A stretch of 64,000 nucleotides of DNA from the IMG/VR virus record IMGVR_UViG_3300027244_000194, positions 1-64,000 of that record. The stretch is one strand, 5' to 3'. The stretch's first letter is position 1. Every line of letters begins with the position of its first letter. The position numbers and the translations under genes were made by a program. The stretch is from a virus. Below the pieces are notes generated by a model. That model was not told the DNA's origin and did not search any database. It saw only the letters and a program-made list of their open reading frames with translations. Of this stretch, positions 4,323 through 37,751 are shown in pieces.

Positions 4323-4325
4323 AGT

Positions 4326-5332: not shown

Positions 5333-5427
5333 AACCAATCCTTCTATGCTTCCTGGGCCCGATTGTTTCAGAGACCATTAAATATAATCAGATAATAAGT
5401 TTGGTGTAAACAAATCTCTACGGGCGG

Positions 5428-5436
5428 GATATATAG
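5428..5436 (+). promoter_or_regulatory. Late-promoter-like box GATATATAG
   Basis: GATATATAG ends 3 nt before the ATG at 5440, the same spacing as at 4326 and 41008. The 107-nt gap upstream also holds TTTGGTGTAAACAAATC, which could carry another promoter, and no clear terminator. Confidence 0.5.
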
Positions 5437-5439
5437 AAT

Positions 5440-5625: not shown

Positions 5626-5697
5626 TTTCTATGCTTATGAAACAAACTTAGGTTTGTAGATATAAGTATTGTTAAAGTTTCTCTAAAAGACACATTA

Positions 5698-5710
5698 ACG
5701 GGATAATTTA
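5698..5710 (+). promoter_or_regulatory. Replication-gene promoter-like box before gp32
   Basis: ACGGGATAATTTA lies 25 nt before the gp32 start and matches the CG-N-(T/G)ATAA box seen before other DNA-metabolism genes in the window. A short inverted repeat, CAAAC-TTAG-GTTTG, lies further upstream near 5643. AAAGGAA just before the ATG is one of the few plausible ribosome-binding sites in the window, fitting a highly expressed gene. Confidence 0.4.
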
Positions 5711-5734
5711 AGTTTAACAATTTTTAAAGGAAAC

Positions 5735-7724: not shown

Positions 7725-7930
7725 TTAGTTTTGATTGGATGGAAAAGGAACTTGACCAGTTTCACGAAGACCACGATGGTCGCAAAAACATGAAAGCGTT
7801 GATTGATTTCGATCAAATCGATATTTCATTTAGCGAGGTAGGATTAGAATTTAGCACGCCAAAGATGAAAAAGAAGTTAACTGCAAATCCATGGACCCCG
7901 TTGAAAAACAACAAAGGTCAACTTTTTTAA
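7721..7930 (+). CDS. Small protein with C-terminal Leu-Phe tail, unknown
   Basis: A 69-residue protein between primase and UvsY, translationally coupled to gp61 (ATGA). It has an acidic N-terminal helix (FDWMEKELDQFHEDHDG), then D-F-D-Q-I-D, and a basic Pro/Lys-rich C-terminus ending K-G-Q-L-F. The final Leu-Phe is shared with four other proteins here and may bind the sliding clamp (inference). No family assignment. Position would allow a small replisome adaptor. Confidence 0.55.
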   Translation: MISFDWMEKELDQFHEDHDGRKNMKALIDFDQIDISFSEVGLEFSTPKMKKKLTANPWTPLKNNKGQLF

Positions 7931-16718: not shown

Positions 16719-16726
16719 TATATAAA
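16719..16726 (+). promoter_or_regulatory. Late-promoter-like box TATATAAA
   Basis: TATATAAA follows the stop of the nuclease-like gene and lies 30 nt before the next CTS gene. Confidence 0.45.
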
Positions 16727-16756
16727 ATAAGATATTAAAAAAGACAACACTTAAAA

Positions 16757-17776: not shown

Positions 17777-18776
17777 GATTCACACAACATTCGAAAGCTT
17801 TGTTAATGAGTCATTAGAGGTTAACGAAGCATTCAAGTCTTCAAAGTTGGCTTCTATTCTTGGCCTATCTTCGGCTAGGAAGGACATAATGAAAGCAGTT
17901 TATAATTTCACTAAGGTTAAGCTAGATGAAATTACTGACGATCAAGTGGTTGAACTACACCCAGCTGAGGCTTATAAGACCAAAGCTCACCCTAACGCTA
18001 TCTTTTTCTATATCTCCGATAATGAGAAAGGAAACCCATACGCTGATCACAGTCAATCTAAATACACCGGTTACGGTACTATTCCAGGTAACACTCTTTT
18101 GGCCATTGCAAATGGTAAAAATGAAATGTTTGCAATGGATTACACTAGAGGATGGAATAGATCAGCTCCTTACGAACCAAAACTAAAGAATGCCGGTAAA
18201 TACGGTAAAGAAGCTTCATCTATAGGCATTGACAAGCAACATTCTGGTTATGGTGCTTCAGGTCTATCAAACATCAAGAGAATTTCTGAGGTTTCAGATA
18301 GAGTTCTAATGTTTGATCCATCTATTCTTCCAAGCGCTGCAGATCAAAAAGCTAGCAGATCAGCTGCTAAAGCAGGCGCAACAGCATTCATGACAGATAA
18401 GGAATTCAAACAGGAGAACATGAACAGATACAAAATGATTCTTGCAACTAGAGCAGCCAGCGATGATATTGACGGTATGGTTGAAAAGGCAATTGAAACT
18501 GTAACTGGACATATTCAAAGCGCTCTTAAGAATAAGACTGCGGGTAGATACGAGTCAATGATCATTGGCACCGACAAGAAAGGTCGCGAAATCTCTATGA
18601 GAGATGCCGCTAACGTTATTTCTAATATACTTGACATGTATCAAAGTTATGTTAGATACACTAACGATGCTAAAAATCCTGAAGGTAGTAAATACTACAC
18701 AAGAGAAGCTTCTACCTACGCTAAGAGCATTAAAGACAAGGTTAAAAAAGTAAATGACATGGATTACGCTTGGTAA
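17769..18776 (+). CDS. Internal head protein candidate with CTS
   Basis: A 335-residue protein of unknown function. The N-terminus MNKIHTTFESFVNESLEVNEA holds two nested possible gp21 sites, after F-V-N-E and after V-N-E. A polar alpha/beta part with many Tyr and Gly residues follows, then a Lys-rich helical C-terminus. Mature composition is basic, suitable for DNA contact inside the head. No catalytic motif seen. Confidence 0.55.
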   Translation: MNKIHTTFESFVNESLEVNEAFKSSKLASILGLSSARKDIMKAVYNFTKVKLDEITDDQVVELHPAEAYKTKAHPNAIFFYISDNEKGNPYADHSQSKYTGYGTIPGNTLLAIANGKNEMFAMDYTRGWNRSAPYEPKLKNAGKYGKEASSIGIDKQHSGYGASGLSNIKRISEVSDRVLMFDPSILPSAADQKASRSAAKAGATAFMTDKEFKQENMNRYKMILATRAASDDIDGMVEKAIETVTGHIQSALKNKTAGRYESMIIGTDKKGREISMRDAANVISNILDMYQSYVRYTNDAKNPEGSKYYTREASTYAKSIKDKVKKVNDMDYAW

Positions 18777-19533: not shown

Positions 19534-20094
19534 ATGCCAAGCACTAGTAAATCACAACAACGTTTAATGGGAGTTGCATACGCCGTCAAGAAGGGCGATA
19601 TGCAACTTTCAGACGTTGACGCGACTTACAGAAATAAGGTGTCAGATCTAGTAGACAGTATGACACTTAAACAACTTAAAGATTTTGCAGAAACAAGCCA
19701 TGAAGGTCTTCCAGAGGTTAAGGAAGATACGATGTTCAGCACGTTGGGTGGAGCGTCTTTATCGAATCTTGGTCCAGGTATGTTGGGTGGGATGGGAGAC
19801 CCTGTTTTACCCGATGCCGGCTCCGATGGTTCAGGAGATGTACCTGCCGGCCAAGGCGATGCTAAGGAAGAGTATCGTAAGAAAAAGAAAAAGAGACGTA
19901 AACTCTTAATGACAATGGAGGAATTCATTGTTGAAAAACAATTAAAGGCATTTTCACCTGATCAACCAGAAGAAGAATCTGTTGGCGGTGGAGATTATGA
20001 AAAGGGCTCAGTTCCCATTCCAGATCAAGAAATGATCGAAAAAGGAAATATGCTTAGCAAGGTTCGTCAAATTATTGGCATTGCTAACAATTAA
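19534..20094 (+). CDS. DUF3008-like protein with internal CTS-like segment
   Basis: A 186-residue protein. The N-terminal 60 residues (SKSQQRLMGVAYAVKKGDM) fit the small DUF3008-type phage family of unknown function, from memory of the S-x-x-Q-x-x-L-M-G-x-A pattern. A Gly/Pro/Asp-rich linker follows. After a basic stretch (YRKKKKKRRKLL) there is M-T-M-E-E-F-I-V-E-K, which looks like a CTS in the middle of the protein rather than at its start. The gene is the last of the head-protein block. Confidence 0.55.
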   Translation: MPSTSKSQQRLMGVAYAVKKGDMQLSDVDATYRNKVSDLVDSMTLKQLKDFAETSHEGLPEVKEDTMFSTLGGASLSNLGPGMLGGMGDPVLPDAGSDGSGDVPAGQGDAKEEYRKKKKKRRKLLMTMEEFIVEKQLKAFSPDQPEEESVGGGDYEKGSVPIPDQEMIEKGNMLSKVRQIIGIANN

Positions 20095-20119
20095 TCTGAA
20101 ACTTTCCTCACGACTGCGA

Positions 20120-20128
20120 TATAAATTA
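20120..20128 (+). promoter_or_regulatory. Promoter-like box TATAAATTA
   Basis: CGACTGCGATATAAATTA ends one base before the ATG at 20130. It belongs to the CG-N-TATAAAnTA group and marks the return to DNA-metabolism genes. Confidence 0.35.
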
Positions 20129-20129
20129 C

Positions 20130-20342
20130 ATGGCAGTCAATCAACAACTCTATTTTTTAAAGGCCCTGAACACTATTCGGTCATGTGAAAACATGACTCA
20201 ATTGGCGGTTGCAGAGTCCGTGATGCAACAATATATTGACATGGAATTATCTTTTGTTAAAGAAGACGAAAACTATGACCATGAATGGCACATGTATACG
20301 TTGATGGCTGAACTTTCAACCGCAAAAAAACTTTTAAGTTAA
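20130..20342 (+). CDS. Small helical protein, unknown
   Basis: A 70-residue, mainly helical, acidic protein (QLYFLKALNTIRSCENMTQL). No family recognised. It is the first gene of the ThyA group and overlaps the next small gene by one base (TAATG). Confidence 0.5.
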   Translation: MAVNQQLYFLKALNTIRSCENMTQLAVAESVMQQYIDMELSFVKEDENYDHEWHMYTLMAELSTAKKLLS

Positions 20343-20494
20343 TGGGTGCTGAAAATCAAATTGAAGAAATTCTAATGGAGGCTGATGCATACGGCCTTCG
20401 TCTAGAGGTGATTGAAACCGCTAAAAAATTCATGGAAGAAGGAATCGAAAGAGTTGAATCGTACGAACTAGCATTTCAAGATTGGGTAAAATGA
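20342..20494 (+). CDS. Very small acidic protein, unknown
   Basis: A 50-residue protein reading MGAENQIEEILMEADAYG... to a C-terminal A-F-Q-D-W-V-K. It fills exactly the gap between two genes, with 1-nt overlap upstream and 4-nt overlap (ATGA) with ThyA, which supports real coding. Helical and acidic; function unknown. Confidence 0.55.
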   Translation: MGAENQIEEILMEADAYGLRLEVIETAKKFMEEGIERVESYELAFQDWVK

Positions 20495-21534
20495 TGACAA
20501 ATTGGTTAGATTTAGACTATCAAAAACTGTTGAGCGATATCGTTCAAAACGGTAAGATCAAAGAAGACAGAACCGGCACTGGAACAAAGAGCTTGTTTGG
20601 AAGGCAGGTTCGCCACGACATGCGAACTGGATTTCCATTGTTGACCACTAAAAAGATGGCGTGGAAAACAATGGTGACTGAACTGCTATGGTTCCTTCGG
20701 GGAGATACTAACATCAAGTTCCTCGTTGAAAATGGGTGCAACATTTGGAACGGTGATGCATATAAAGCATACAAAAGTAGGACCAATAATCAAATGTCTA
20801 TGGATGAGTTCATTGAACTTATCAAAACCAATGAACAATTTGCTGAAATAAACGGTGAGTTAGGACCAATCTATGGTAATCAGTGGCGTGAATGGGGCAG
20901 TCAATATGAAACCAATTACATTTTAGGCACTCAAACCAAAAGAAAACCAGGCATAGATCAGATCCAACAGTTGATTGACGACTTGAAGACTAATCCAGAT
21001 TCTCGCAGATTGATGGTTAATGCATGGAACGTTGAGCAGTTGCCTAATATGGTTCTTCCACCGTGTCACTATGGGTTTCAAGTTTACACCACCGAAATGA
21101 GTATTAAAGAGCGTAGATCGCGCTGGGCTGAATCAATCGGGCACAATGATTATTATGCAGTTAACCTAGAACATGAAGATCTTGATGAAAGAGATTTTCC
21201 TCGCCGTAAGATTTCATTGATGTGGAATCAACGCTCAGTTGACACGTTCTTGGGTCTACCATTTAATATCGCGTCGTACGGACTTCTACTTACCATCCTT
21301 GGTAAGGCCGTTAACATGATCCCAGATGAATTGATTGGAAGTTTGGGAGATACTCATTTGTATCTCAATCACCTTTCACAGGCAAGTCAGCAAATTAGAC
21401 GTGAGCCATTTGACTTACCATACGTCACAGTTGACATGCCAATCTCTGGCAAAATAGAGGATTTGACACATGACCATATTCGATTGTTCGAATATCAATG
21501 TCATGAGCAAATCAAAGCACCGTTAAGTAATTAA
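20491..21534 (+). CDS. td: Thymidylate synthase ThyA
   Basis: Converts dUMP to dTMP with methylene-tetrahydrofolate. The 347-residue protein has R-T-G-T-G-T-K (phosphate-binding Arg loop), L-L-W-F-L-R-G-D-T, catalytic Cys in P-P-C-H-Y, and L-M-W-N-Q-R-S. L-G-L-P-F-N-I-A-S-Y keeps the Asn that selects dUMP, so it is a synthase and not a dCMP hydroxymethylase. It is longer than E. coli ThyA by inserts near residues 90-160 and 205-235. ATG 20491 (or 20494) is preferred over the TTG at 20482. Confidence 0.9.
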   Translation: MMTNWLDLDYQKLLSDIVQNGKIKEDRTGTGTKSLFGRQVRHDMRTGFPLLTTKKMAWKTMVTELLWFLRGDTNIKFLVENGCNIWNGDAYKAYKSRTNNQMSMDEFIELIKTNEQFAEINGELGPIYGNQWREWGSQYETNYILGTQTKRKPGIDQIQQLIDDLKTNPDSRRLMVNAWNVEQLPNMVLPPCHYGFQVYTTEMSIKERRSRWAESIGHNDYYAVNLEHEDLDERDFPRRKISLMWNQRSVDTFLGLPFNIASYGLLLTILGKAVNMIPDELIGSLGDTHLYLNHLSQASQQIRREPFDLPYVTVDMPISGKIEDLTHDHIRLFEYQCHEQIKAPLSN

Positions 21535-25928: not shown

Positions 25929-27149
25929 ATGAAGATAGCATTAGTACTAGCTAAAGGAGTAGAAGGATGTGGATTGACTCGCCACACCATTGAATTTTAC
26001 AACTGGTTGATTAAAGAAGGTCACGAAGCAACCATTTACGCAGCAACAGAAAAGATGTGGCCTCGTCACAAGTCAACTGACATTATTGCAACTAACTTTA
26101 AGCGCAAAGACATTCCTAAGGTCGCTAAAGAATTGAACGAATGTGATGTGGTCTATTACACTTCATTCCCTCACAAATCAGTAGGTGATGAATTTAACGA
26201 AGACTTTATCGAACATTGTGTATATGGTCTAACCAAACCAGTAAAGGTTGGTAACTGCCTTGACCACAACATGGCGAATCTTAATAAGAACCATCGCTAT
26301 TGGGAGATCATGAGTCAAATGGATGCAATGTTCAATTACTCGTTGACATCTAACTTCGCAAACAAAATGCGTGAGCACGCTCCAAACACTCCATTGATTG
26401 AGATGAATCTCAATCCTTACGATTACGATGCTTGGAAGCCTGTTTGGAAATCAGCTGAAAAGCAGACTCGAAGAATCACTTACTTTGGTCGTTTCGCTGG
26501 ATTTAAGGATCCATTCAGAATGTTTGATTTGATGAACCTTTTGAAAAATGAAGACGTGGTAACTGAAGCTCGAGGCGTTGAACGTTCTATTGGTGCCCTA
26601 CCAATGTTCTTGAACGATGATCGCACTCCACGTCAAGATGTATTTGAAGTCCATGACACGAAGAATCCAGTCACATATCCTCAACTCACTGATAAGGTCT
26701 ACATTTACGGTCCTTATAATCTAGCTGAAGGTATGGGTGAGTTGTCAAACTCAATGTTTGGTGCAGAATTCTTTAACCTACCCGAACGCCTTTACGGCTC
26801 AATGATTGAGTATGCAATGTGCGAGGTAATTGCAGCAGGTACCATTCCTTTGTTTGATAAACACTGGGGAGATCACGTTATTCACCGTACTGAAGGGGTT
26901 CCTTTCAGTCAACTAAAAGATTTTGCAATCTTCGTTGATAAGAATAACGTTGAAGCTTCAATTCCTCAGATTCTAGAATTGGCAGCTGATCACAAGCGTC
27001 GAGATGAATTCAGACAGAATTCATTCCGTCTAGCTAAATTGCACAATGCACCTGAAGTTGTTAACACTGATTTGTTCAATGCTATCGCAAGTGTTAATAA
27101 AAGACAAACAGAAAAGCCAATTACTTTACAAACAAATTCACTTTTCTAA
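25929..27149 (+). CDS. Alpha-glucosyltransferase (Agt)-like GT-B enzyme
   Basis: Glycosyltransferase of the GT-B fold closely related to T4 Agt, which glucosylates 5-hydroxymethylcytosine in DNA. The start (MKIALVLAKGVEGCGLTR) parallels T4 Agt MRICIFMARGLEGCGVTK, including the G-x-E-G-C-G loop, and I-K-E-G-H-E-A-T follows. The C-terminal domain has Y-F-G-R-F-A-G-F-K-D-P and an E-x-x-x-C-E-V-I-A-A-G-T-I-P nucleotide-sugar region. It ends T-L-Q-T-N-S-L-F, a Leu-Phe tail also found on the polymerase and RNase H. T4 Agt is reported to contact clamp gp45. The true DNA base and sugar are unknown; no hydroxymethylase lies in the window. Confidence 0.75.
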   Translation: MKIALVLAKGVEGCGLTRHTIEFYNWLIKEGHEATIYAATEKMWPRHKSTDIIATNFKRKDIPKVAKELNECDVVYYTSFPHKSVGDEFNEDFIEHCVYGLTKPVKVGNCLDHNMANLNKNHRYWEIMSQMDAMFNYSLTSNFANKMREHAPNTPLIEMNLNPYDYDAWKPVWKSAEKQTRRITYFGRFAGFKDPFRMFDLMNLLKNEDVVTEARGVERSIGALPMFLNDDRTPRQDVFEVHDTKNPVTYPQLTDKVYIYGPYNLAEGMGELSNSMFGAEFFNLPERLYGSMIEYAMCEVIAAGTIPLFDKHWGDHVIHRTEGVPFSQLKDFAIFVDKNNVEASIPQILELAADHKRRDEFRQNSFRLAKLHNAPEVVNTDLFNAIASVNKRQTEKPITLQTNSLF

Positions 27150-27160
27150 GTACAAGATAT

Positions 27161-27625
27161 ATGGCAAACACAGATAATAAATGCTCAGACCTTAACGTAG
27201 AAGATTTCTACACAGGCGTTGAAGACACCTTTGGTCTAATCTACAACAAGCAAAAAGAATTACAAGCTCGCCTTGGATTTGACTTCACAGGTTGGACCCT
27301 TAAGCAGATTGCAGACTTTTGGATGGTCAACAAGCACGCTCTAAGTGATGAACTAAACGAAATGTTCGATTCACTAGGAGGTGTTAACGATGGAATTGGT
27401 TCAGCTGCATGGAAGTACTGGAAGAAGGATAACGCTAAGGCAGTTGACATGAAAGTTGAAGATCTTAGTGAAGCAGATCGATTGGAACTCTACTATGAGT
27501 GGGTTGATGGCTTGCACTTCTTCATGAATTTCGCAATTTCAATCGGTATGACTTCAAAAGATGTAGTCAACCTTTACATGGCCAAGAACGCAGAGAATCA
27601 CGATCGTCAAAACCGAGGATACTAA
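27161..27625 (+). CDS. 56: gp56-like dCTPase/dUTPase
   Basis: All-alpha NTP pyrophosphatase that hydrolyses dCTP/dUTP and in T4 keeps plain cytosine out of phage DNA. The 154-residue protein (T4: 171) matches T4 gp56 in S-L-G-G...W-K-Y-W-K-K, the metal-binding E-x-x-D pattern in Y-Y-E-W-V-D-G-L-H-F-F, and the end L-Y-M-A-K-N-A-E-N-H-D-R-Q-N-R-G-Y. It starts 11 nt after the glucosyltransferase and overlaps polymerase by 1 nt (TAATG), so modification and replication are in one operon. Confidence 0.75.
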   Translation: MANTDNKCSDLNVEDFYTGVEDTFGLIYNKQKELQARLGFDFTGWTLKQIADFWMVNKHALSDELNEMFDSLGGVNDGIGSAAWKYWKKDNAKAVDMKVEDLSEADRLELYYEWVDGLHFFMNFAISIGMTSKDVVNLYMAKNAENHDRQNRGY

Positions 27626-29028
27626 TGTTATTAGACGTAGAACAAAGAGACAAAGAAGTCATTATTTCATATTACGACAAGGAAGGCAAGGTTAATTTCA
27701 AGCGCTACCCTGTTGAGCAATTTAAGAACTGGTACATCACCGATCCAATGGATCGTTATAAACATGAGACCTTGACAAACTGGGACGGTCGTCCTATCAA
27801 GTTGGGTCCTGCTCGCCAGTTCAATAAGTTCTCTTTGATCTATTACTTAGACAATTTACCCGAACGAGACAAAGAAGAAATCTTTGCATACAATCTTCCT
27901 CGTACATACTTTGTCGATATTGAAACCGAGATCGTAGATGGTTTCCCTAAAGCTGAAGAAGCCAAATCACGAATCCTAACATTCTCAATCATTACGCCAG
28001 AACGTAAGGCCATTGTTCTTGGATTAGAAGAACTTTCTCTTGAAAAAGTTAAGAAAATCGAAGCTGACACTAATGAATACTTCAAACAATTCGATCAGGA
28101 TTGGACCTTTGAATACCGTCAGTTTAAGAATGAACATGACATGGTGGCAACATTCATTTATCGGTTCTTACCTAAGTTTCCGATGATGACGGGCTGGAAC
28201 TTTATCAACTATGACTGGCAATATATCGTTAACCGATGTAAGCGTCTCCAGATTGACATCAAAGAAGCCTCAATGACTCAATCACTTGATAAGAATGATT
28301 CTAGACCGCTGCACATCGGCATCTTAGATTACATGCAATTGTATGATAAGTACGATCGCACGGTCAAGGTAAAAGAATCTAATGCTTTGGATTATGTATC
28401 TGGTCAAGTACTGAAGACAAATAAGATCAAGTATAATGGATCCTTACAGGACCTTTACGAGAATGACTTTACAAAATACGTATTCTATAACGTAGTTGAC
28501 TCATGTCTAGTCTATTATATAGATCAACAGCTTAAGTCAATGGAAGTTCTATTGACCCTGGCTTCAATCACCAAGATGCCTCTCTATAAAGCTGCATCAC
28601 CAGTTGCTGTAACGGAAGCTCTGATTGCACGTAAGATGTCAGCCCTTAATAAGAGAATTGGATCAGAACAAAGAGATGAAGGTTCAAAGGATGGCCAATA
28701 TGCTGGTGCTTATGTTAAAGAACCGGTTGTTGGTTTCTATCAAGGTGTATCTGCATTTGACTTTGCTTCACTGTACCCCTCAATCATGCGACAGTTTAAC
28801 ATCTCACCTGACTCATATAAAGAAATCATTCCAAAGTCTGAGATTCCTGAAAGACGAAAGAATGAAGATGAAATCGTCTGTGTTAACGGAGTTGTGTACG
28901 ATAAGAAAGATTCAATATTGAAGCAAATTCTTTCAGATCTTTACACACAGCGTAAAGAATATAAGGCAAAATCTTACGAGTATTTCACTAAAGCTGAAGA
29001 AGCTAAAAAGGTACTAAAAGGATTTTAA
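27625..29028 (+). CDS. 43A: DNA polymerase gp43, N-terminal subunit (split)
   Basis: Family B replicative polymerase, N-terminal part, 467 residues. It contains the 3'-5' exonuclease: Exo I F-V-D-I-E-T-E, Exo II G-W-N-F-I-N-Y-D, Exo III Y-N-V-V-D. Then comes palm motif A, D-F-A-S-L-Y-P-S-I. The chain stops in the first fingers helix (QRKEYKAKSYEYF...KVLKGF). The missing fingers/palm, motifs B and C, and thumb are encoded at 32866-34074, 3.8 kb away, so the enzyme must be assembled from two chains. No intein or frameshift signal is visible at the break. Confidence 0.9.
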   Translation: MLLDVEQRDKEVIISYYDKEGKVNFKRYPVEQFKNWYITDPMDRYKHETLTNWDGRPIKLGPARQFNKFSLIYYLDNLPERDKEEIFAYNLPRTYFVDIETEIVDGFPKAEEAKSRILTFSIITPERKAIVLGLEELSLEKVKKIEADTNEYFKQFDQDWTFEYRQFKNEHDMVATFIYRFLPKFPMMTGWNFINYDWQYIVNRCKRLQIDIKEASMTQSLDKNDSRPLHIGILDYMQLYDKYDRTVKVKESNALDYVSGQVLKTNKIKYNGSLQDLYENDFTKYVFYNVVDSCLVYYIDQQLKSMEVLLTLASITKMPLYKAASPVAVTEALIARKMSALNKRIGSEQRDEGSKDGQYAGAYVKEPVVGFYQGVSAFDFASLYPSIMRQFNISPDSYKEIIPKSEIPERRKNEDEIVCVNGVVYDKKDSILKQILSDLYTQRKEYKAKSYEYFTKAEEAKKVLKGF

Positions 29029-29064
29029 TCAGTTATTATATTTAGAGCCCCTCGTAACAGCCAT

Positions 29065-29073
29065 GATATATAC
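29065..29073 (+). promoter_or_regulatory. Late-type box GATATATAC in the gap after gp43A
   Basis: GATATATAC within the 144-nt gap, 100 nt before nrdB. Far from the start and in a replication region, so its use is uncertain. Confidence 0.25.
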
Positions 29074-29096
29074 AATGTATCGTAAAGTTACACCCC

Positions 29097-29127
29097 GGGT
29101 CCATCAGTTCTAATGAATTAAGGACCC
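29097..29127 (+). other. Hairpin in the gap between gp43A and nrdB
   Basis: GGGTCC and GGACCC can pair across a 19-nt loop, followed by TTTG. GGGTC is also spaced 12 nt from TGAATTA, a degenerate copy of the GGGTC-N12-TATATTA element. It may be a weak terminator or control element upstream of nrdB. Confidence 0.4.
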
Positions 29128-29172
29128 TTTGTCGTCTAATAGCAATAGTAAAAAAAATACGTTTTTTAAAAA

Positions 29173-30183
29173 ATGTCAAAATCTCAATTATTTAAAGAAA
29201 GAATAGAATTTAAGCCCTTTGAATATCCAATTTATTACACAGAGGGATGGCTAAAACAAGCACAGGCCTTTTGGCTTCATACGGAGATTTCGATGCAAGG
29301 CGACGTGAAAGATTGGAATGAAAATCTTTCAGCATCTGAAAAGAATTTGGTCGGTAACATTTTATTGGGGTTTGCACAGACTGAATGTGCAGTTTCTGAT
29401 TATTGGACCGGCATGGTAACCAATTGGTTCCCTAAACATGAAATTAAGCAAATGGCAATGATGTTTGGTTCGCAAGAAACCATCCATGCAACAGCGTATT
29501 CATATCTAAACGAAACATTAGGCCTTGAGGATTTTAAGGCATTCTTACATGAGCCTTCAACAGCTGCACGTTTTGAGTTCTTGATGGGTACTACAGCGGA
29601 TTACACCCATGAAGATTTGGCTAGGTCAGCGGAAGCTCGAAAAGACGTTGCTCGTTCATTGGCTATTTTTTCAGCCTTTGCCGAAGGAGTAGCTCTATAT
29701 TCTTCATTTGCGGTTCTATACTCGTTTCAAATGAGAAACCTTTTAAAGGGTATTGGTCAGCAAATGAAATGGTCAGTTAGAGATGAATCTCTTCACTCAA
29801 AAATGGGATGTCAATTGTTCCGTCAAATGTGTGAAGAGTATCCAGACCTAAGAAATGCAGTACAATCACAGGTTGAAGAAGCTGCACATCTTATGGTCGA
29901 AATGGAAATGAATTACATCGATAAGATTTTTGAAGCTGGCGATCTAGAAAATCTAAATGCATCAGACTTAAAAGAGTTCATCAAGAAAAGAGCCAATGAA
30001 AAGCTCAATGAAATTGGTTATGAATCTATCTTTAAGTTTGATGAATCAGCAGCCGCAGAACTTGATTGGTTCTATCACTTAACAGGCGGGCATACGCATA
30101 CAGACTTCTTCGCAGTACGCCCTACGGATTACTCAAAGGCTGGTGAAGATGAAAACTGGGATGAAGACGATTTGTTTTCTTAA
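29173..30183 (+). CDS. nrdB: Ribonucleotide reductase small subunit NrdB
   Basis: Class I RNR radical-generating subunit, 336 residues. Metal-site motifs are E-T-I-H-A-T-A-Y (Glu, His and the candidate radical Tyr) and D-E-S-L-H-S (Glu, His), with a central F-A-E-G-V-A-L-Y (Glu). The first carboxylate ligand seems to be the Glu in A-Q-T-E-C rather than the more common Asp. It ends in an acidic, Trp-containing tail (ENWDEDDLFS), the usual NrdA-docking region. It precedes nrdA by 43 nt and lies between the two polymerase halves. Confidence 0.9.
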   Translation: MSKSQLFKERIEFKPFEYPIYYTEGWLKQAQAFWLHTEISMQGDVKDWNENLSASEKNLVGNILLGFAQTECAVSDYWTGMVTNWFPKHEIKQMAMMFGSQETIHATAYSYLNETLGLEDFKAFLHEPSTAARFEFLMGTTADYTHEDLARSAEARKDVARSLAIFSAFAEGVALYSSFAVLYSFQMRNLLKGIGQQMKWSVRDESLHSKMGCQLFRQMCEEYPDLRNAVQSQVEEAAHLMVEMEMNYIDKIFEAGDLENLNASDLKEFIKKRANEKLNEIGYESIFKFDESAAAELDWFYHLTGGHTHTDFFAVRPTDYSKAGEDENWDEDDLFS

Positions 30184-30202
30184 ACAGATTTGAATCTAGC
30201 GG

Positions 30203-30211
30203 TATAAAGTA
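30203..30211 (+). promoter_or_regulatory. Promoter-like box TATAAAGTA
   Basis: AGCGGTATAAAGTA, 15 nt before the nrdA start. CG-N-TATAAAnTA group. Confidence 0.35.
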
Positions 30212-30226
30212 CATAAGAATTATAGA

Positions 30227-32026
30227 ATGGAAGAAATTAATCATGGTGAATTTTTAGGATGGGAAGTTGGAGTTGACTTTCCAATATGGGCCAACACTGA
30301 AGTTTACGTTAAAACAGTATCTAAAGGTTATCTTTTAGAAGGTGAAACACCAAAGGATGCATATTGGAGAGTTGCTACCACTGTAGCAAAGAGATTACGT
30401 AAGCCTGATTTGGCTAGTAAATTCTTTGATTACATGTGGAAGGGTTGGTTGAACCTAGCAACTCCAGTTTTCTCAAACACTGGAACCGAAAGAGGTCTAC
30501 CAATTTCATGTTTTGGTATTGATGTAGGCGATTCAATTCAAGAGATTGGTAACAAGAATCTTGAAATGATGCTACTTGCAAAACACGGTGGCGGAGTTGG
30601 AATTGGAGTTAATATGATTCGTCCTGCAGGTTCGAACATTTCACAGAACGGTACGTCAGATGGCGTAGTTCCTTTTATTAAGATCTACGATTCATCGATT
30701 CTAGCGACAAATCAGGGTTCAGTTCGTCGAGGTGCAGCATCAGTTAATATCGATATCGAGCACGGTGACTTTTGGGAGTGGCTAGAAATTAGAGAACCCA
30801 AAGGAGACGTTAATCGTCAATCTCTAAATATGCACCAATGTGTTGTTGTCTCAGATTCATTTATGATGAAGCTTGAACAAGGAGACAAGGAAGCCCGTAA
30901 ACGATGGGCTGCAGTTCTTCGTAAGCGTAGAACGACCGGCGAGCCTTACATCATGTTTAAAGGTAACGTTAACCGTCAAAATCCAGATGCTTACAAGAAC
31001 AATCAGTTAAAGGTTTTTATGACCAACATTTGTTCTGAGATTACTCTTCATACTGACGAGAACCACTCATTCGTTTGTTGTTTGTCTTCAATCAACCTTG
31101 CAAAATACGACGAGTGGAAGGACACTGATCTGGTTTACACTGCAACATGGTTCCTAGACGGCGTCCTAGAAGAGTTTATCACACGTGCAAAATACATGCG
31201 TGGCTTCGAGAACTCTGTTCGTTCAGCTGAAAAAGGTCGAGCACTGGGTCTTGGAGTTCTTGGATGGCATACGTACCTACAAGAAAGAGGTATTGCATTT
31301 GACGCAATGGGCGCACAATTTGAAACACGTAAGATCTTCTCTCAAATTAAGATTGAATCGGAACGAGCTTCACGAGACATGGCAAAAGTGTATGGCGAGC
31401 CACTGTGGTGTGTTGGAACAGGTATGAGAAATACACACCTTCGTGCCATTGCCCCAACAGTTTCAAATTCAAAACTGTCAGGAAACGTATCAGCGGGTAT
31501 TGAGCCATGGGCTGCCAACGTTTTCACCGAGCAAACTGCAAAAGGTACATTCATTCGCAAGAACCCAACCCTTGACACGGCACTGAACATGATCAAACTA
31601 AACTCTAAAGAAGTTTGGGATCAAATTTTGATAGATGGTGGATCGGTTCAAGGAGTAGAATCTCTTGACAAGTGGTACGCCAAAGAAGGTGAGAAATTCA
31701 CATACATCAATCAAAAGGAATATGATAAACTTTCTGAAATTGAAAAAGACAAGTGGGTTCCATTCAAAGATGTATTTTTGACCTTTAAGGAAATCAATCA
31801 AATGGAATTAGTTCGTCAAGCTGGTATTCGTCAACAATACATTGACCAAGCGGTTTCACTTAACCTTGCCTTCCCTAACGAGGCTGAACCCAAGTACATC
31901 AATCAAGTTCACCTAGAGGCATATAAGCAAGGCGTTAAGACATTATACTACATGCGAACAGAATCAGTGCTAAGAGGAGATATTGCTCAACGAGCAATGA
32001 TTGACTGCTTAAGTTGTGATGGATAG
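30227..32026 (+). CDS. nrdA: Ribonucleotide reductase large subunit NrdA
   Basis: Class I RNR catalytic subunit. The 599 residues are shorter than E. coli NrdA (761) because the N-terminal ATP-cone is absent, so the usual dATP overall-activity control is probably missing. Active-site features are present: S-C-F after N-L-A-T-P-V-F-S-N-T-G, N-I-C-S-E-I (Asn, Cys, Glu), V-C-C-L-S-S-I-N-L, P-T-V-S-N-S, and the C-terminal redox pair C-L-S-C. Catalytically complete by these residues. Confidence 0.9.
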   Translation: MEEINHGEFLGWEVGVDFPIWANTEVYVKTVSKGYLLEGETPKDAYWRVATTVAKRLRKPDLASKFFDYMWKGWLNLATPVFSNTGTERGLPISCFGIDVGDSIQEIGNKNLEMMLLAKHGGGVGIGVNMIRPAGSNISQNGTSDGVVPFIKIYDSSILATNQGSVRRGAASVNIDIEHGDFWEWLEIREPKGDVNRQSLNMHQCVVVSDSFMMKLEQGDKEARKRWAAVLRKRRTTGEPYIMFKGNVNRQNPDAYKNNQLKVFMTNICSEITLHTDENHSFVCCLSSINLAKYDEWKDTDLVYTATWFLDGVLEEFITRAKYMRGFENSVRSAEKGRALGLGVLGWHTYLQERGIAFDAMGAQFETRKIFSQIKIESERASRDMAKVYGEPLWCVGTGMRNTHLRAIAPTVSNSKLSGNVSAGIEPWAANVFTEQTAKGTFIRKNPTLDTALNMIKLNSKEVWDQILIDGGSVQGVESLDKWYAKEGEKFTYINQKEYDKLSEIEKDKWVPFKDVFLTFKEINQMELVRQAGIRQQYIDQAVSLNLAFPNEAEPKYINQVHLEAYKQGVKTLYYMRTESVLRGDIAQRAMIDCLSCDG

Positions 32027-32037
32027 CATTATTTAAG

Positions 32038-32062
32038 AACCCGCTTTGAGCGGGTTTTTTTA
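32038..32062 (+). terminator. Intrinsic terminator after nrdA
   Basis: Stem AACCCGC/GCGGGTT with TTTGA loop and a T-run, 11 nt after the nrdA stop. Confidence 0.85.
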
Positions 32063-32086
32063 TGTGAAACAAATTACCAATTTTAC

Positions 32087-32095
32087 TATACAATA
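32087..32095 (+). promoter_or_regulatory. Promoter-like box TATACAATA
   Basis: TTTACTATACAATAACTAAACG, 21 nt before the clamp gene. Shares AATAACTAAACG with the site before the Agt-like gene. Confidence 0.45.
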
Positions 32096-32116
32096 ACTAA
32101 ACGAAAATAATTAAGC

Positions 32117-32866
32117 ATGAAAATTCAAATCAATCGCGTAGATCAGAACCAATTCGTAGAGTTCGTTAATCGCCTGAAGTCAATCGATTCATTCCTGTAC
32201 TTCAAGTTGCGTAACGGTAACATTCAATCTGCGGTTTATCTACCACAACGTGATGCAGTTAAAATGCATTCACAGCCAATTTCAGAGTTGTTCACTGTCG
32301 ATGGTGATCTTCCTGAAGGTAAGGAAATCAAAGTTGCTTTCTTTGACGCTAACAAAGTTCTTGAAGCAATTAAGATGTTTGGTTCAGATCAAATCTCAGC
32401 AGAGATCGAATTGATCGAGAACGAAGAAGACTATGTATCATCTACAATGAAGATTTTCAATAATGAACTTGAAATCACACTAGTTTGTTCTGAACCTTCT
32501 CTTGGTTTCAAAGATCTTACAGATTCTCAAATTGAAGGCATCTTTTCACGTGAAGGGTCGGCATTTGATTTTACGCTTGACACTTTCACACTTGGTAAAA
32601 TCAAGTCACTGTTTAATCTTGATAAAGATGAAACGTTTGAAATTAAAGCGAATGGCGAAGGTGTTCGAGTTAAAGGTAAGACTTATAACTATCAAGCAGG
32701 TTCAGAGTACAATGGTCAATCAGCTTCTGCAACCCTTTACAAAAAGTATTTGAATCTTCTAGACCGTGAAGAGTACGCAGTTTACGTATCAGCAAATAAG
32801 GTTGTTATGAAGTCTAATGACTCTAACACATTGTTGACGATTGCTACTTGTCAAACGGCTGAATAA
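32117..32866 (+). CDS. 45: Sliding clamp gp45-like
   Basis: Processivity clamp, 249 residues (T4 gp45: 228). Assigned from size, from the two-domain beta-rich clamp pattern (KVAFFDANKVLEAI in the first domain, FTLDTFTLGKIKSLF and EEYAVYVSANKVVMKS in the second), and from direct overlap with the polymerase C-subunit gene (TAATG). In T4 the clamp also activates late transcription through gp33 and gp55, both of which have candidates here. Sequence similarity to T4 itself is low. Confidence 0.7.
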   Translation: MKIQINRVDQNQFVEFVNRLKSIDSFLYFKLRNGNIQSAVYLPQRDAVKMHSQPISELFTVDGDLPEGKEIKVAFFDANKVLEAIKMFGSDQISAEIELIENEEDYVSSTMKIFNNELEITLVCSEPSLGFKDLTDSQIEGIFSREGSAFDFTLDTFTLGKIKSLFNLDKDETFEIKANGEGVRVKGKTYNYQAGSEYNGQSASATLYKKYLNLLDREEYAVYVSANKVVMKSNDSNTLLTIATCQTAE

Positions 32867-34074
32867 TGACTTTAGAAGAACTAAAGAATACTTCCCTAGA
32901 TCGACTAGGAAAAGACGAGCTACAAAGCTTGGTGGACTATTATCAAAAAGAGTCCGCCAAGTTTACGGCTTATGAGCAAGCGGTTAAGGTAACGCTAAAC
33001 TCAGTTTACGGTGCATTTGGTAATAAGTGGTTTCACTTCTTTAATCTAGATATTGCCGAATCAATTACCTTACAGGGTCAAAACGCTATCCTGTATTCTG
33101 AACAAGTATTAAATAAGTACTTTCATGATTTTTGGCATAAAGACACTAAGTTACACGAACACATCGGCGTAACAGTTAAAGGACAATGCCACCGCCCATC
33201 TGTAATTTACATTGATACTGATTCGTGCTACGTACAGTTCGATGAGATGTATAAAACATGTGAATGGACAGGAGAACCGATGACCATTGATACATTCATC
33301 CTAGCAGTATACAATTTTAGAATTAAAGAGTATATTGTTAAAGCAATGGAAAAGTATGCAGTAGCAGCCAACACCGATAACTTCTTAGTTTTTGAGCTAG
33401 AAACAGTGGCCTACTCTGGCATTTGGATGAGTAAGAAAAAGTACATTCAGGATATTGCGTGGGATGATAAGATTCCTACGACTGAACGCCATAAGCCACT
33501 GAGTAAAGTAAAGACCATTGGATTTGATACCATTCAATCCTCTACTCCTACGTTTGCTAGGGCTAAATTAACAGAGGCCCTTAAGATTATGTTTAATGAA
33601 GAGGCTGGCCCTACAGCAGACACCCTTCAAAAACTTACATCATTCTTAAGCGAAGCCAAGAAGCAGTTCAAGATGGCCAAGCTCGATGAAATTGCGTTCA
33701 ATAAGAGAACAAATAACATTGAAAGATATATTGTTGATGATCATATTGAATTTCAGTTTGGTCTAAAGTGTCCGCCCAACGTAAAGGCTGCAGGATATTA
33801 CAACTTCTTGTTGAACAACAACCAAAAATTCAAATCAAAGTATCGACTGATTGGTAATGGTGAGAAGTTGAAGATCTATCACGCAATTGATCCAGGTGGA
33901 ATTTCAGACGTATTTGCATACCTTCCAGGAGATCATCCTTATGAATTTGCGCCACAGGTTGATTACGAAACACAGTTTGAAAAATCAATCATTGATCCCT
34001 TGAATCGATTGTTAACGTCAGTTGGATTACAGTCCATTAATCGTAATCTAATTTACTCAACTTCTTTGTTCTAA
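32866..34074 (+). CDS. 43B: DNA polymerase gp43, C-terminal subunit (split)
   Basis: C-terminal part of the family B polymerase, 402 residues. It starts in the second fingers helix (KFTAYEQAVKVTLNSVYG...), with motif B K-V-T-L-N-S-V-Y-G, then motif C Y-I-D-T-D-S, K-K-K-Y and the thumb. It ends I-Y-S-T-S-L-F, equivalent to the clamp-binding C-terminus of T4 gp43. The two halves appear to join without a large deletion. The gene is coupled to the clamp by 1-nt overlap. Confidence 0.9.
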   Translation: MTLEELKNTSLDRLGKDELQSLVDYYQKESAKFTAYEQAVKVTLNSVYGAFGNKWFHFFNLDIAESITLQGQNAILYSEQVLNKYFHDFWHKDTKLHEHIGVTVKGQCHRPSVIYIDTDSCYVQFDEMYKTCEWTGEPMTIDTFILAVYNFRIKEYIVKAMEKYAVAANTDNFLVFELETVAYSGIWMSKKKYIQDIAWDDKIPTTERHKPLSKVKTIGFDTIQSSTPTFARAKLTEALKIMFNEEAGPTADTLQKLTSFLSEAKKQFKMAKLDEIAFNKRTNNIERYIVDDHIEFQFGLKCPPNVKAAGYYNFLLNNNQKFKSKYRLIGNGEKLKIYHAIDPGGISDVFAYLPGDHPYEFAPQVDYETQFEKSIIDPLNRLLTSVGLQSINRNLIYSTSLF

Positions 34075-34093
34075 ACAAAACACATTCACGTAG

Positions 34094-34102
34094 TATAAAT
34101 TA
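34094..34102 (+). promoter_or_regulatory. Promoter-like box TATAAATTA
   Basis: CACGTAGTATAAATTA, 13 nt before the ATG at 34116; probable start of the uvsX-gp41-gp46 transcription unit. Confidence 0.4.
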
Positions 34103-34115
34103 AAATACACTAATC

Positions 34116-34244
34116 ATGGAAGATAATAAACTCATGACCCAATTAGTTGAACTTCACACTGAAAATCCAAACGACATGGAATTTGGAGCATCTGTTCGCA
34201 AACTAGTATGGGATTACATCCAGCAAAACAGTCCAGCTTACTAA
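34116..34244 (+). CDS. Very small acidic protein, unknown
   Basis: A 42-residue protein (MEDNKLMTQLVELHTENPND... ending N-S-P-A-Y). It lies between a promoter-like box and the next gene with a 4-nt gap. Helical; no family recognised. Confidence 0.5.
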   Translation: MEDNKLMTQLVELHTENPNDMEFGASVRKLVWDYIQQNSPAY

Positions 34245-34248
34245 AAAT

Positions 34249-34458
34249 ATGGCACTCAGACCAAGAGACCTTGAAGGTCTATCACAAAACGAAATATTCT
34301 TTGTTGAACGATATGATTTCATTTACCGTGAGTTGAATCGTCTACAGGATAACATGTCAAAGATTGAAATCGAGACAGGTAAACTATTAACAGAGCTTCA
34401 AGCTCTTCGAGAAAAAGAACAACAAACCCTAGAAAACAATGGCGAAGAAATTAACTGA
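34249..34458 (+). CDS. Small coiled-coil protein, unknown
   Basis: A 69-residue protein with a C-terminal coiled coil (NRLQDNMSKIEIETGKLLTE). It overlaps uvsX by 20 nt. It may be an accessory protein of UvsX, but no family is recognised. Confidence 0.5.
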   Translation: MALRPRDLEGLSQNEIFFVERYDFIYRELNRLQDNMSKIEIETGKLLTELQALREKEQQTLENNGEEIN

Positions 34459-35563
34459 ATTCACATTTGAAGATCTTAACGCAGAGTTGAAGGACATCAA
34501 TCCGTTAGGTTCTATCATGGAACACTCTTCTTTTAGTGAAGTTACAGAGTGGATCGACACCGGCAACTATAACCTGAACGCATGTATCTCAGGGTCTGTG
34601 TTTGGCGGATGGCCAAATAATAGAGCATGTTCGGTTGCTGGTCCTTCAGGAACGGGTAAGACATATTTGATGTTGAACACGGTGAAGAGGGCAATTGACA
34701 TGGGCTACAGTATCATCTATTATGATTCTGAAGCTGCGGTGGATCGAGATCAAATGAAGAAGTTTGGCATTGATACAAACAAAGTTAACTATCAACCCGT
34801 TAATACGGTTCAAGATTTCCGTACTTCAGTCACCCGCATCACCAAGAAAATGCAAGATGCAAAAGCATCAGGCGCAGAATTGCCTAAGATCCTAATTATT
34901 CTTGATTCTGCCGGTAACCTTGCAACCGCAAAGGAAATTGACGATGCTGCATCGGGGTCTGATAAGTCGGATATGACACGTTCAAAGGTTCTAAAGTCAA
35001 TCTTTAGAATTATCATGACTCCGATGGCAGATCTAAAGATTCCTTTCTTGTTCACCAACCACACATATCAATCACAATCCTTTATCCCAACTCAAATTGC
35101 AGGTGGAGGTACAGGTCCTGAATATGCAGCGTCAATCGTTTTATTCTTGAACAAGGCACAATTGAAAGAAGGAGATCAGAAAGCAGGTATTATCGTTACT
35201 GCGTCACCTAACAAGAACCGTTTCGCTAAACCTTCAAAGATCAAGTTTCACTTGCACTTCTCTAAAGGCATGAACCGTTACGTTGGTCTTGAAAACTACG
35301 TATCATGGGATATTTGCGGTGTCGATCGAGGAACTATCGATCCTAAGACCGGTGAGAAGATCTTAAAGAAAACTGCACGCACTTGGGTTTGTGAACACCT
35401 TGACGAAGCAGTCGATAACAAAGACTTCTTCACTGATAAGGTATTCACGACTGAGGTTCTAAAGAGAATCGATGCACACATTCAACCGATCTTCAACTAC
35501 AATATGGAAGAGATCGAAGATATAAACATTGATGAGATCTTAGAAGATGTTGCTAACGATTAA
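34439..35563 (+). CDS. uvsX: RecA-like recombinase UvsX
   Basis: Strand-exchange recombinase for recombination-dependent replication and repair. The 374-residue protein (T4: 391) has Walker A G-P-S-G-T-G-K-T, the catalytic region Y-Y-D-S-E-A-A, Walker B I-L-I-I-L-D-S-A-G, an L-F-T-N-H-T-Y motif and the T-Q-I-A-G-G-G-T-G-P loop. The C-terminus is acidic (IEDINIDEILEDVAND), as in UvsX/RecA. It works with UvsY (7940) and gp32. Confidence 0.92.
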   Translation: MAKKLTEFTFEDLNAELKDINPLGSIMEHSSFSEVTEWIDTGNYNLNACISGSVFGGWPNNRACSVAGPSGTGKTYLMLNTVKRAIDMGYSIIYYDSEAAVDRDQMKKFGIDTNKVNYQPVNTVQDFRTSVTRITKKMQDAKASGAELPKILIILDSAGNLATAKEIDDAASGSDKSDMTRSKVLKSIFRIIMTPMADLKIPFLFTNHTYQSQSFIPTQIAGGGTGPEYAASIVLFLNKAQLKEGDQKAGIIVTASPNKNRFAKPSKIKFHLHFSKGMNRYVGLENYVSWDICGVDRGTIDPKTGEKILKKTARTWVCEHLDEAVDNKDFFTDKVFTTEVLKRIDAHIQPIFNYNMEEIEDINIDEILEDVAND

Positions 35564-35852
35564 CGAAGATCGTCTCCCAATTAAATTTATCCTAGGGATT
35601 GAAAAGGATCTGGAAAGTTATCCAGATCCTTTTGACATCTTACATTTCTATATCAATCTGGCCTATCGTAATCCAGATCGTTATAAGGATAGTTTTACCA
35701 AACATGCTGTAGTCCAATATCACTTCAAAGACTTTTCACCAGAAGTGATCGATGCATCTCTAAATAAACTATTAGAAGAAGGTTATTTAGAACAGACTAA
35801 AGATCAACCGGGCAAAGAAGCCTACAAAATTATAATAAATCCATTCGAATGA
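35547..35852 (+). CDS. Hypothetical winged-helix-like protein
   Basis: A 101-residue protein overlapping uvsX by 17 nt. Its C-terminal half (PEVIDASLNKLLEEGYLEQT, then Y-K-I-I-I-N-P-F) looks like a winged-helix recognition helix and wing. Function unknown; the overlap suggests co-expression with UvsX. Confidence 0.5.
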   Translation: MLLTINEDRLPIKFILGIEKDLESYPDPFDILHFYINLAYRNPDRYKDSFTKHAVVQYHFKDFSPEVIDASLNKLLEEGYLEQTKDQPGKEAYKIIINPFE

Positions 35853-36424
35853 TTGTAGTAATTGATAACTTCGTAAAAGATGAAATGTTGCTTAAAGATA
35901 TTGCAGCTGATCAAACTTTTTTTGCCGATCCCGGTGTTTATTATTACTGGGGAGGATGGTGGGATTCATCAGCTAATACAATTAAGAAAAGATTGATTGA
36001 ATATATTTGGGGACATAATTGTCCAATCAATGAGAGCTTTAATATCAATGGATTTGAATATTGGACTGGAATTCAAACTGCTAATCCAGAAAAAGGATTC
36101 AAAAATATTCTTGGAAATCATTACGATAAAGATGAAGCTTGGTTTGAAAAAACTGGTGCTATTGTGATTCCATTAATAGGAACAGTATATTATCCAGCAG
36201 GTCAAGAATTTGAAGGTGGAGAATTAGCAATTTACACAGACGGAGTGAACTCTCCACCTGAGATCGTAAAGGCTAAACCTAATCGATTAATTATCTTTGG
36301 AGCAGGCAATTATGTTCATGAAGTTAAACCAGTAACGAGTGGAACTCGACATGCAATTGCAATTAATCTATGGGAAAATGAACCATATAGTAAACAAGTT
36401 GGTCAATTTCGTATAGAAGCCTAA
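35849..36424 (+). CDS. 2OG-Fe(II) oxygenase, prolyl-hydroxylase-like
   Basis: A 191-residue double-stranded beta-helix oxygenase. The iron site is readable: H-Y-D near residue 92 (His, Asp) and the distal His in V-H-E-V-K-P near 152, followed by G-T-R-H-A-I with the Arg that binds 2-oxoglutarate. Such enzymes are common in T4-like phages and hydroxylate proteins or bases; the target is unknown. The coding sequence appears more AT-rich than its neighbours, hinting at separate acquisition. It overlaps the previous gene by 4 nt. Confidence 0.75.
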   Translation: MIVVIDNFVKDEMLLKDIAADQTFFADPGVYYYWGGWWDSSANTIKKRLIEYIWGHNCPINESFNINGFEYWTGIQTANPEKGFKNILGNHYDKDEAWFEKTGAIVIPLIGTVYYPAGQEFEGGELAIYTDGVNSPPEIVKAKPNRLIIFGAGNYVHEVKPVTSGTRHAIAINLWENEPYSKQVGQFRIEA

Positions 36425-36437
36425 AATATACTCAATA

Positions 36438-37751
36438 ATGCAGTTCGGTCAAGATTTTGAAAAGATATTCTTTAAGCTATCTCTACAGAGGGTAAAGTAT
36501 TTAGATACCATCAAGGGTGGTTTCTACACTTCTGAAGAGATTGATCACTTATCTAAATTAGCTCACAAGTTCTACGAGCGGTTTCACGAGACTCCTTCTA
36601 AGGATCAGATGAAGCTACTCGTTAAGAGTTCAAAGCAAAAAGAAAAGGTAAGTGATGAAATGATTGACCTCATCTATGATGTCAATCTACATGAATACGA
36701 TGACGAATGGTTGACCTCAACCGCAGAGTCTTGGATCAAATGGCGCAACTTCAATGAATCTCTCGCAGATTCAATCGAGTTCATTAAGACCACTACAGTT
36801 ACACCTGAAAACGTTGATGCTTTAGTCAATAAGTTTAAAGGTCTAATCAATGACCGTAACTCAATTAACTTTGATTCTAACCTGGGTCTAGACTTCTTTG
36901 ACCCTAATGCCCACGATCAAAAAGAAACTGAAAAGGTAAGTTCGGGTTACAACTTTATTGACCGTCTTCTTGGCGGTGGATATGATAGAGGTGGTAACTT
37001 AATTGTTTACGTTGGTGAACAAAACATCGGTAAGTCAATCTTTCTAGCGAATGATGCTGCAACCGCTGTTAAAATGGGTCACAACACTGCGGTCATTACT
37101 GCAGAAATGGCGGACCATAAGTTTGTAAAACGTATTGGTTCAAACCTTCTATCAATTCCAATCAACGAGTACCAGGAAAAGTCAAAGAATAAGGACTACA
37201 TTCAACGTAGATTGGAAACTGTTGGTAATGGTCTAACTCCTCCTGGAAATCTATTCGTTAAACAGTTTCCAACTTCACAGGCGACGGTTCTCGATATTGA
37301 ATCGTACCTCAAACAAGTTGAAGAAGAAAAGAAAGTAAAACTAAATGTAATCGTAATTGACTACATTAACATTCTTTCAAATTACAGAAATCCAAACTCG
37401 GAGAACACCTATCTGAAAATCAAACAGATCGCTGAAGATCTTCGTGCAATGGGAGTTCGTAACAATTGGCTAATTGTTACAGCGACACAGATCACGCGTT
37501 CAGGATATAATGCATCTGACATCTCAATGTCTGACGTTGCGGAATCTGCAGGTCTATCACACACTGCAGATGTAATGTTGGGTATTATTCAAGATGATTT
37601 GATGCGAGCGAACTTTGAGTACTGGTTGAAAATCCTAAAGATCAGAGATGGTGAAGGTAAGGGTACAAAATGTAGGTTGATAATCAACTATAATATGATG
37701 AGACTAAACGAAACCGAGGACATCACCGGTTCAAACATACATACACTATAA
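36438..37751 (+). CDS. 41: Replicative helicase gp41
   Basis: DnaB-type hexameric helicase, 437 residues (T4: 475). Walker A is G-E-Q-N-I-G-K-S-I-F, Walker B is V-I-V-I-D-Y-I-N, and T-A-T-Q-I-T-R carries the sensor/arginine region; V-A-E-S-A-G-L-S-H-T-A-D follows. The N-terminal domain is helical. Partner of primase gp61. Confidence 0.9.
   Translation: MQFGQDFEKIFFKLSLQRVKYLDTIKGGFYTSEEIDHLSKLAHKFYERFHETPSKDQMKLLVKSSKQKEKVSDEMIDLIYDVNLHEYDDEWLTSTAESWIKWRNFNESLADSIEFIKTTTVTPENVDALVNKFKGLINDRNSINFDSNLGLDFFDPNAHDQKETEKVSSGYNFIDRLLGGGYDRGGNLIVYVGEQNIGKSIFLANDAATAVKMGHNTAVITAEMADHKFVKRIGSNLLSIPINEYQEKSKNKDYIQRRLETVGNGLTPPGNLFVKQFPTSQATVLDIESYLKQVEEEKKVKLNVIVIDYINILSNYRNPNSENTYLKIKQIAEDLRAMGVRNNWLIVTATQITRSGYNASDISMSDVAESAGLSHTADVMLGIIQDDLMRANFEYWLKILKIRDGEGKGTKCRLIINYNMMRLNETEDITGSNIHTL

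Follow-up and report, generated by a model that had tools for sequence, protein, structure and literature searches.

Results

The gp43 halves lie around ribonucleotide reductase and clamp genes

The DNA analysed here, called the window below, is a stretch of 64,000 nucleotides, positions 1 to 64,000 of the virus record IMGVR_UViG_3300027244_000194. The IMG/VR source record has 170,561 bases (170.6 kb), is possibly incomplete and is probably a metagenome assembly. In the window the gene for the replicative DNA polymerase, gp43, is present as two genes, polN and polC, and between them lie the class I ribonucleotide reductase (RNR) genes nrdB and nrdA and a sliding clamp gene (Table 1). The + strand gene order is dUTPase/MazG, polN, nrdB, nrdA, clamp, polC, uvsX, 2-oxoglutarate (2OG)-Fe(II) oxygenase and gp41, so that clamp, uvsX and gp41 all stand near the polymerase genes, as looked for in a gp43 neighbourhood. 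A preliminary description, made from the sequence alone, had placed nrdB, nrdA and gp45 between two polymerase halves; their coordinates, order and strand were correct, and nrdB and nrdA were confirmed by Pfam, PHROG and NCBIfam models.

Table 1. Features of the split polymerase locus (window coordinates).
Feature	Position	Strand	Remarks
dUTPase/MazG-like nucleotide pyrophosphohydrolase	27161..27625	+	PF08761 E=7e-9, phrog_173; overlaps polN ATG by 1 base
polN (gp43 N-part, 467 aa)	27625..29028	+	Exo I-III, palm motif A, first fingers helix
polN-nrdB intergenic stretch	29029..29172	+	RNA-structured; GGGUCC/GGACCC stem ~29097-29127
nrdB, class I RNR small subunit	29173..30183	+	PF00268 E=7e-59; NF007186 above cut-off
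nrdA, class I RNR large subunit	30227..32026	+	PF02867 E=6e-90; NF006577 and TIGR02506 above cut-off
Intrinsic-terminator-like hairpin, nrdA-clamp gap	32035..32061	+	AACCCGCT-TTG-AGCGGGTT-T tract
gp45-like sliding clamp, PCNA fold, 249 aa	32117..32866	+	AlphaFold2 model and Foldseek
polC (gp43 C-part, 402 aa)	32866..34074	+	second fingers helix, motifs B and C, thumb, C-terminal STSLF
uvsX, small open reading frame, 2OG-Fe(II) oxygenase, gp41 helicase	34439..37751	+	same run 3' of intact gp43 in cyanophage S-SM1

polN and polC together carry every catalytic residue of a T4-type polymerase

In Pfam, polN hits PF03104 as well as an N-terminal portion of PF00136, and a subsequent portion of PF00136 is hit by polC. 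Both halves also match consecutive stretches of phrog_262 (97-496 and 498-842 of 856), and separate PHROG profiles exist for each of them (phrog_2062 and phrog_1918). Profile comparison with RB69 gp43 (1clq) gave E=1e-64 for polN and E=3e-29 for polC. The Exo residues D98, E100, D197 and D292 and the motif A residue D379 of polN are invariant across 44 aligned N-parts; K41, N45, Y48 and G49 of motif B and D117 and D119 of motif C are invariant across 31 aligned C-parts of polC, as is F402 in the STSLF end of the protein. Taken together, polN and polC are a T4-type family-B polymerase in which every catalytic residue is kept, and the division first proposed for a replicative polymerase split in the fingers, with Exo I-III and motif A in polN and motifs B and C in polC, is borne out.

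When polC was modelled alone, the predicted local distance difference test (pLDDT) score fell below 50 at residues 33-75 and 170-223, stretches that are expected to meet the missing half, and much of the remainder of the model matched RB69 gp43 589-893 (Z 17.9).

To map the break, we compared the PDB with one profile built from 44 N-parts and another built from 34 C-parts. The N-part profile stops at RB69 gp43 residue 504 (profile position 465) and the C-part profile begins at residue 527 (profile position 8); polN itself reaches approximately RB69 505 and polC begins at approximately RB69 520. The break therefore lies at the fingers tip, at about RB69 gp43 506-519. The break had been placed within the fingers helices: the fingers were the right domain, and the alignment to RB69 gp43 moves the position from the helices to the tip. 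The N-parts terminate shortly after the first fingers helix, at a distance from the QRK motif of about 24-38 residues in nearly all distinct cases. Fingers length, counted as residues from the QRK arginine to the motif B asparagine, is 59-90 in split members (128 in one megaphage); among intact polymerases it is 41-47 in cyanophage-like relatives, 82 in T4/RB69, 70 in Flavobacterium phage MaF61 and 78 in YEP3. In the two splits sampled, those of the window lineage and of Aeromonas phage 44RR, the break sits in long fingers only.

The split is a feature of a whole phage lineage

Three scans of viral contigs for polN and polC arranged as in the window returned 164 loci, corresponding to 93 distinct sequences in 62 clusters. 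These results confirm that the split is a feature of a whole phage lineage and not an oddity of a single genome. The preliminary description had regarded three genes between the halves as unusual; within the lineage this arrangement is the rule, conserved across the 62 clusters. Since the window comes from an IMG/VR virus record, probably a metagenome assembly, we considered that assembly or strain mixing might have wrongly interrupted an intact gp43 with a neighbouring stretch. The 93 distinct polN..polC sequences from other contigs, drawn from many samples and in the same order, rule out an assembly error; the phage isolates Sphingomonas phage PAU (gp105/gp110) and Chryseobacterium phage MA9V-2 share the split, and no intact form was seen among close relatives. 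The chance of an artefact is practically nil.

No joined gp43 was seen among close relatives of the window in the viral contig scans. Joined forms were found only in distant cyanophage-like groups (about 30% identity) and in MaF61, and a scan of viral contigs with the intact MaF61 polymerase gave no relatives. A recent insertion into gp43 was dropped as an explanation, all close relatives, to about 45% identity, being likewise split. A separate case was met in an intact-polymerase group, where the gp43 of L248 (3252-6394; nearest L212) is interrupted near the fingers by an open reading frame (ORF) in which GIY-YIG/NUMOD-like repeats were recognized by eye; there is an upstream frame break too, and an endonuclease gene has apparently been inserted there recently.

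In Lak phages and megaphages the polymerase halves lie more than 100 kb apart, at 233 kb on the + strand and 131 kb on the - strand in LR745206, and at 124 kb on the - strand and 346 kb on the + strand in Lak-A2. PolC of LR756500 (L165 15416-18816) and of Lak-A2 (L166 4914-7062) is interrupted in motif C, between DTD and S, by an apparent split intein, and the polymerase would therefore come from three genes. The LR756500 ORF between the intein halves (16179-17882) has DUF7487 and MTES_1575 nuclease matches. The class II RNR (NrdJ) of the same phage (L165 7069-11240) is divided as well: its two ORFs are separated by a further ORF, and an intein-splicing domain is present where the protein is broken.

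The records nearest to the window capsid and UvsX are LR756500 with Lak phages or other megaphages, and one relative is located on a contig of a Bacteroidales metagenome-assembled genome (MAG); a Bacteroidota host is therefore likely for the window phage. On L333, a Bacteroidales MAG contig, a polN relative is followed by an NrdJ gene that contains an in-frame intein and matches HNH weakly (3865-7818).

The halves are under selection and evolve together

Measured against the relative L011, the ratio of nonsynonymous to synonymous substitution rates (dN/dS) was 0.025 for polN and 0.055 for polC; both halves are thus under strong purifying selection. We compared pairwise protein distances over 703 genome pairs; the pairs are not independent and the figures are descriptive. 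The polN and polC distances correlate with r=0.94, and with 0.64 once the uvsX distance is removed. With the same correction the clamp-polC correlation is 0.76, and those of the RNR with polN, polC or clamp are 0.02-0.21 (0.04-0.21 for polN/polC vs nrdA/nrdB). PolN and polC evolve together; the RNR does not evolve with them.

These data bear on the idea that the gene is broken and that replication of the genome falls to another polymerase, the halves either decaying or each having a role other than that of a polymerase. PolN does contain the whole exonuclease part, which could work by itself, as exonuclease and polymerase are parted in phage RM378; moreover, the record is possibly incomplete, and the phage might use an enzyme of its host. 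Strong purifying selection on both halves, invariant polymerase residues and joint evolution all speak against it, and no A-, B- or C-family polymerase beyond the two halves was found in the 170.6-kb record, which may be incomplete. A broken gene is therefore very improbable. A complete second gp43, which would have undermined the split, was likewise not found in that record.

No element that could rejoin the halves is found at the break

Another explanation is that one normal polymerase is restored after expression, a split intein or a trans-spliced intron joining the halves. Relatives do appear to carry split inteins nearby (Lak-A2 and LR756500 at polC motif C, LR756500 also in NrdJ), and for archaea a link between inteins and split PolB genes has been drawn (PMC4104785). 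A permissive Rfam scan of 27000-35000 detected no group I/II intron at the break. No intein domain or motif is present at the polN end or the polC start, both of which are fingers sequence, although the same library finds an intein domain in the RNR genes of relatives. PolN and polC each have their own start and stop, and in megaphages, where more than 100 kb separates the halves and they lie on opposite strands, the fingers carry no intein. No homing endonuclease was found between the halves in the window either. The domain, motif and Rfam searches of the window were thus as empty as had been described at the outset, and we consider rejoining very improbable.

The clamp and polC form a stable pair, and the RNR genes are exchanged

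The 249-aa protein encoded 5' of polC matched no Pfam, PHROG or NCBIfam model and was detected as a clamp by fold only. Its AlphaFold2 model (pLDDT 91.7, predicted template modelling score (pTM) 0.85) matches PCNA clamps in Foldseek at E=5e-13 with a template modelling (TM) score of about 0.6-0.7. The model has the clamp fold, and the gp45 label given earlier was right. The polC ATG overlaps the clamp stop codon by one base, and the distance from clamp gene end to polC start lies between -14 and +16 bases in 65 of the 67 distinct junctions. A clamp homologue is found immediately 5' of polC in PAU; in MA9V-2 only a TnpB-family gene (L161 18693-19859) intervenes. L273 (14272-20613) is an exception to the tight junction: it has additional genes between RNR and clamp and an ORF between clamp and polC (19804-20613). 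Because the clamp adjoins polC in the lineage junctions and in PAU, and nearly so in MA9V-2, the clamp-polC pair looks like the oldest part of the arrangement.

The RNR between polN and clamp is of several types. That of the window is class I without ATP cone (no ATP-cone match in nrdA). A second class I type (about 30/41% identical) lies between the halves in L026, L031 and L068, and a class I RNR with ATP cone was shown in L263, which L265 and L266 resemble in identity. Class II enzymes occupy the position in other relatives, as an NrdJ-type in L270 and LR756500 and as an RTPR-like form in L289. In L264 the RNR is 76-77% identical to that of the window, and polN merely 49%. No RNR was detected between the halves of PAU or MA9V-2. 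The RNR genes between polN and clamp are thus an exchangeable cassette, separate from the stable clamp-polC pair, and the insert is not a single unit: RNR genes of other classes replace those of the window.

Of the 62 clusters, 19, the window's own among them, have a perfect hairpin with a T tract 5' of the clamp gene; shuffled controls had none. As RNA, the stretch between polN and nrdB folds far better than its shuffled versions (z=-3.8, 200 shuffles). At the other end of polN, the 1-base overlap with the dUTPase gene is the most frequent junction type in relatives (44 distinct). The halves are probably in two transcription units, each tied to its upstream gene (dUTPase-polN and clamp-polC).

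A probable single old split here and an independent one in 44RR

We built a tree of 45 rows, leaving out the break columns. The 22 split rows and the intact MaF61 form one fully supported group, and 44RR is placed with T4 and RB69. In approximately unbiased (AU) tests, the 22 split rows as a single clade were not rejected (p=0.47), and a single clade including 44RR was rejected (p=8e-8). When PAU, MA9V-2, Lak-A2 and YEP3 were removed, MaF61 stood at the base of the split group. The grouping and the AU tests fit one old split in the window lineage and an independent split of 44RR at the same place.

As to origin alone, the split may have come from a tandem duplication gp43-(clamp)-gp43 with complementary loss of halves, not from gene insertion into gp43. 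Such an origin would explain why the clamp is between the halves wherever they are linked, in PAU and MA9V-2 as well, and why polC kept cyanophage-like downstream genes. No intermediate with overlapping halves was seen, and the near coincidence of N-part ends and C-part starts across the lineage fits a precise break better than independent erosion. We regard a duplication as possible but rather unlikely.

Elsewhere in the window, start codons at 11846, 12417, 17769, 18815 and 50137 begin proteins with a common N-terminal header, e.g. MKHVKLFEQFI or FESFVNE, possibly a capsid-targeting sequence of head-packed proteins.

Discussion

The replicative polymerase of this phage is very probably an obligate two-subunit enzyme, in which polN and polC associate non-covalently, the gene having been split a single time at the tip of long fingers and the RNR genes placed later; that the subunits associate and are active, and which evolutionary step preceded which, is what we infer from sequence. 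In this enzyme the 3'-5' exonuclease would come from polN, together with one fingers helix and the portion of the palm that holds motif A; polC would contribute the second fingers helix, motif B, motif C with its catalytic DTD, the thumb and the putative clamp-binding tail. The separately translated chains would associate without splicing, through the antiparallel fingers helices and a palm built from both chains, and the complex would act as one T4-type polymerase-exonuclease running on the adjacent clamp. The split would have arisen once, in the lineage ancestor; the clamp gene would have become or stayed the direct neighbour of polC, and the RNR genes, once placed between polN and clamp, would have been exchanged there as a cassette. 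A heterodimeric polymerase is the best reading because of the purifying selection, the behaviour of the polC model and the precedent of 44RR. For the split gp43A/gp43B of that phage PMC2993671 cites Petrov et al. (2010), whose work reportedly described a gp43A-gp43B complex.

Several points weigh against this proposal. The role of the STSLF end of polC as a putative clamp-binding tail is assigned by analogy, and the weak model of polC alone could stem from a shallow alignment. The terminator-like hairpin parts polN-RNR from clamp-polC, so that a single transcript does not ensure that both halves are made in equal amounts. The succession proposed above, in which the gene split once and the clamp took its place before the RNR did, depends on a tree in which PAU, Lak and MaF61 are long branches.

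A further proposal is that the gap in the split polymerase is a dedicated RNR exchange site, where phages would leave polN, clamp and polC together while the RNR class might be swapped to match the supply of oxygen, metal or cofactor. Placement of the RNR there might tie the making of deoxynucleoside triphosphates to the polymerase, through expression and perhaps also by physical contact. We hold this only tentatively and think it doubtful.

Split gp43 was already known, and the halves of the window lineage are in databases, each as a PHROG family. The gp43A/gp43B genes of Aeromonas phages 44RR and 25 have the same fingers-tip break, with exonuclease and motif A on one side and motifs B and C on the other, and the aligned break columns of 44RR and the window lineage agree within a few columns. 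The genes of these phages were correctly described as lying around a short gap or an endonuclease gene (49 bp in 44RR, an endonuclease in phage 25), whereas the window halves are 3.8 kb apart, with nrdB, nrdA and clamp between them and without mobile element. The rejection of a shared clade makes the 44RR split a separate event. The polymerase halves of PAU, MA9V-2 and the Prevotella Lak phages, with PHROG families 2062 and 1918, show the same split, which could share a single origin with that of the window lineage; they differ in that PAU and MA9V-2 lack a detected RNR between the halves, and that Lak phages and megaphages have distant halves and a polC that may carry a split intein. Rhodothermus phage RM378 (Far-T4) is also T4-like, with exonuclease and polymerase parts in distant genes (L164 21996-22937; L177 29587-31155), but its split falls between exonuclease and palm and leaves motifs A and B in one protein.

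A different split polymerase, Pol III alpha, appears in a jumbo-phage survey (PMC7824862), and in archaea (Methanobacteriales; Nanoarchaeum equitans) a B-family polymerase comes from two genes (PMC4104785). The archaeal enzymes are cellular PolB3, unlike that of the window, and are likened to it by two-gene coding, break positions aside. A split intein is believed to join the N. equitans PolB by trans-splicing, and such an intein is absent from the window polymerase. No description of a lineage-wide split, or of an exchangeable RNR with a clamp between the halves, was found in the open literature, most subscription papers lying outside the search; a fixed, lineage-wide split around a clamp and a swappable RNR appears undescribed in searchable papers.

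These findings indicate that a large and diverse phage lineage can keep its replicative polymerase permanently in two chains, and that the same position at the tip of the fingers has been broken on at least two independent occasions. Such positions are natural split sites for engineered or controllable polymerases. The findings also warn that surveys using gp43 as a marker, and genome annotation, will count halves or overlook polC. The replacement of one RNR class by another between polN and polC offers a testable case of modular exchange within a replication locus.

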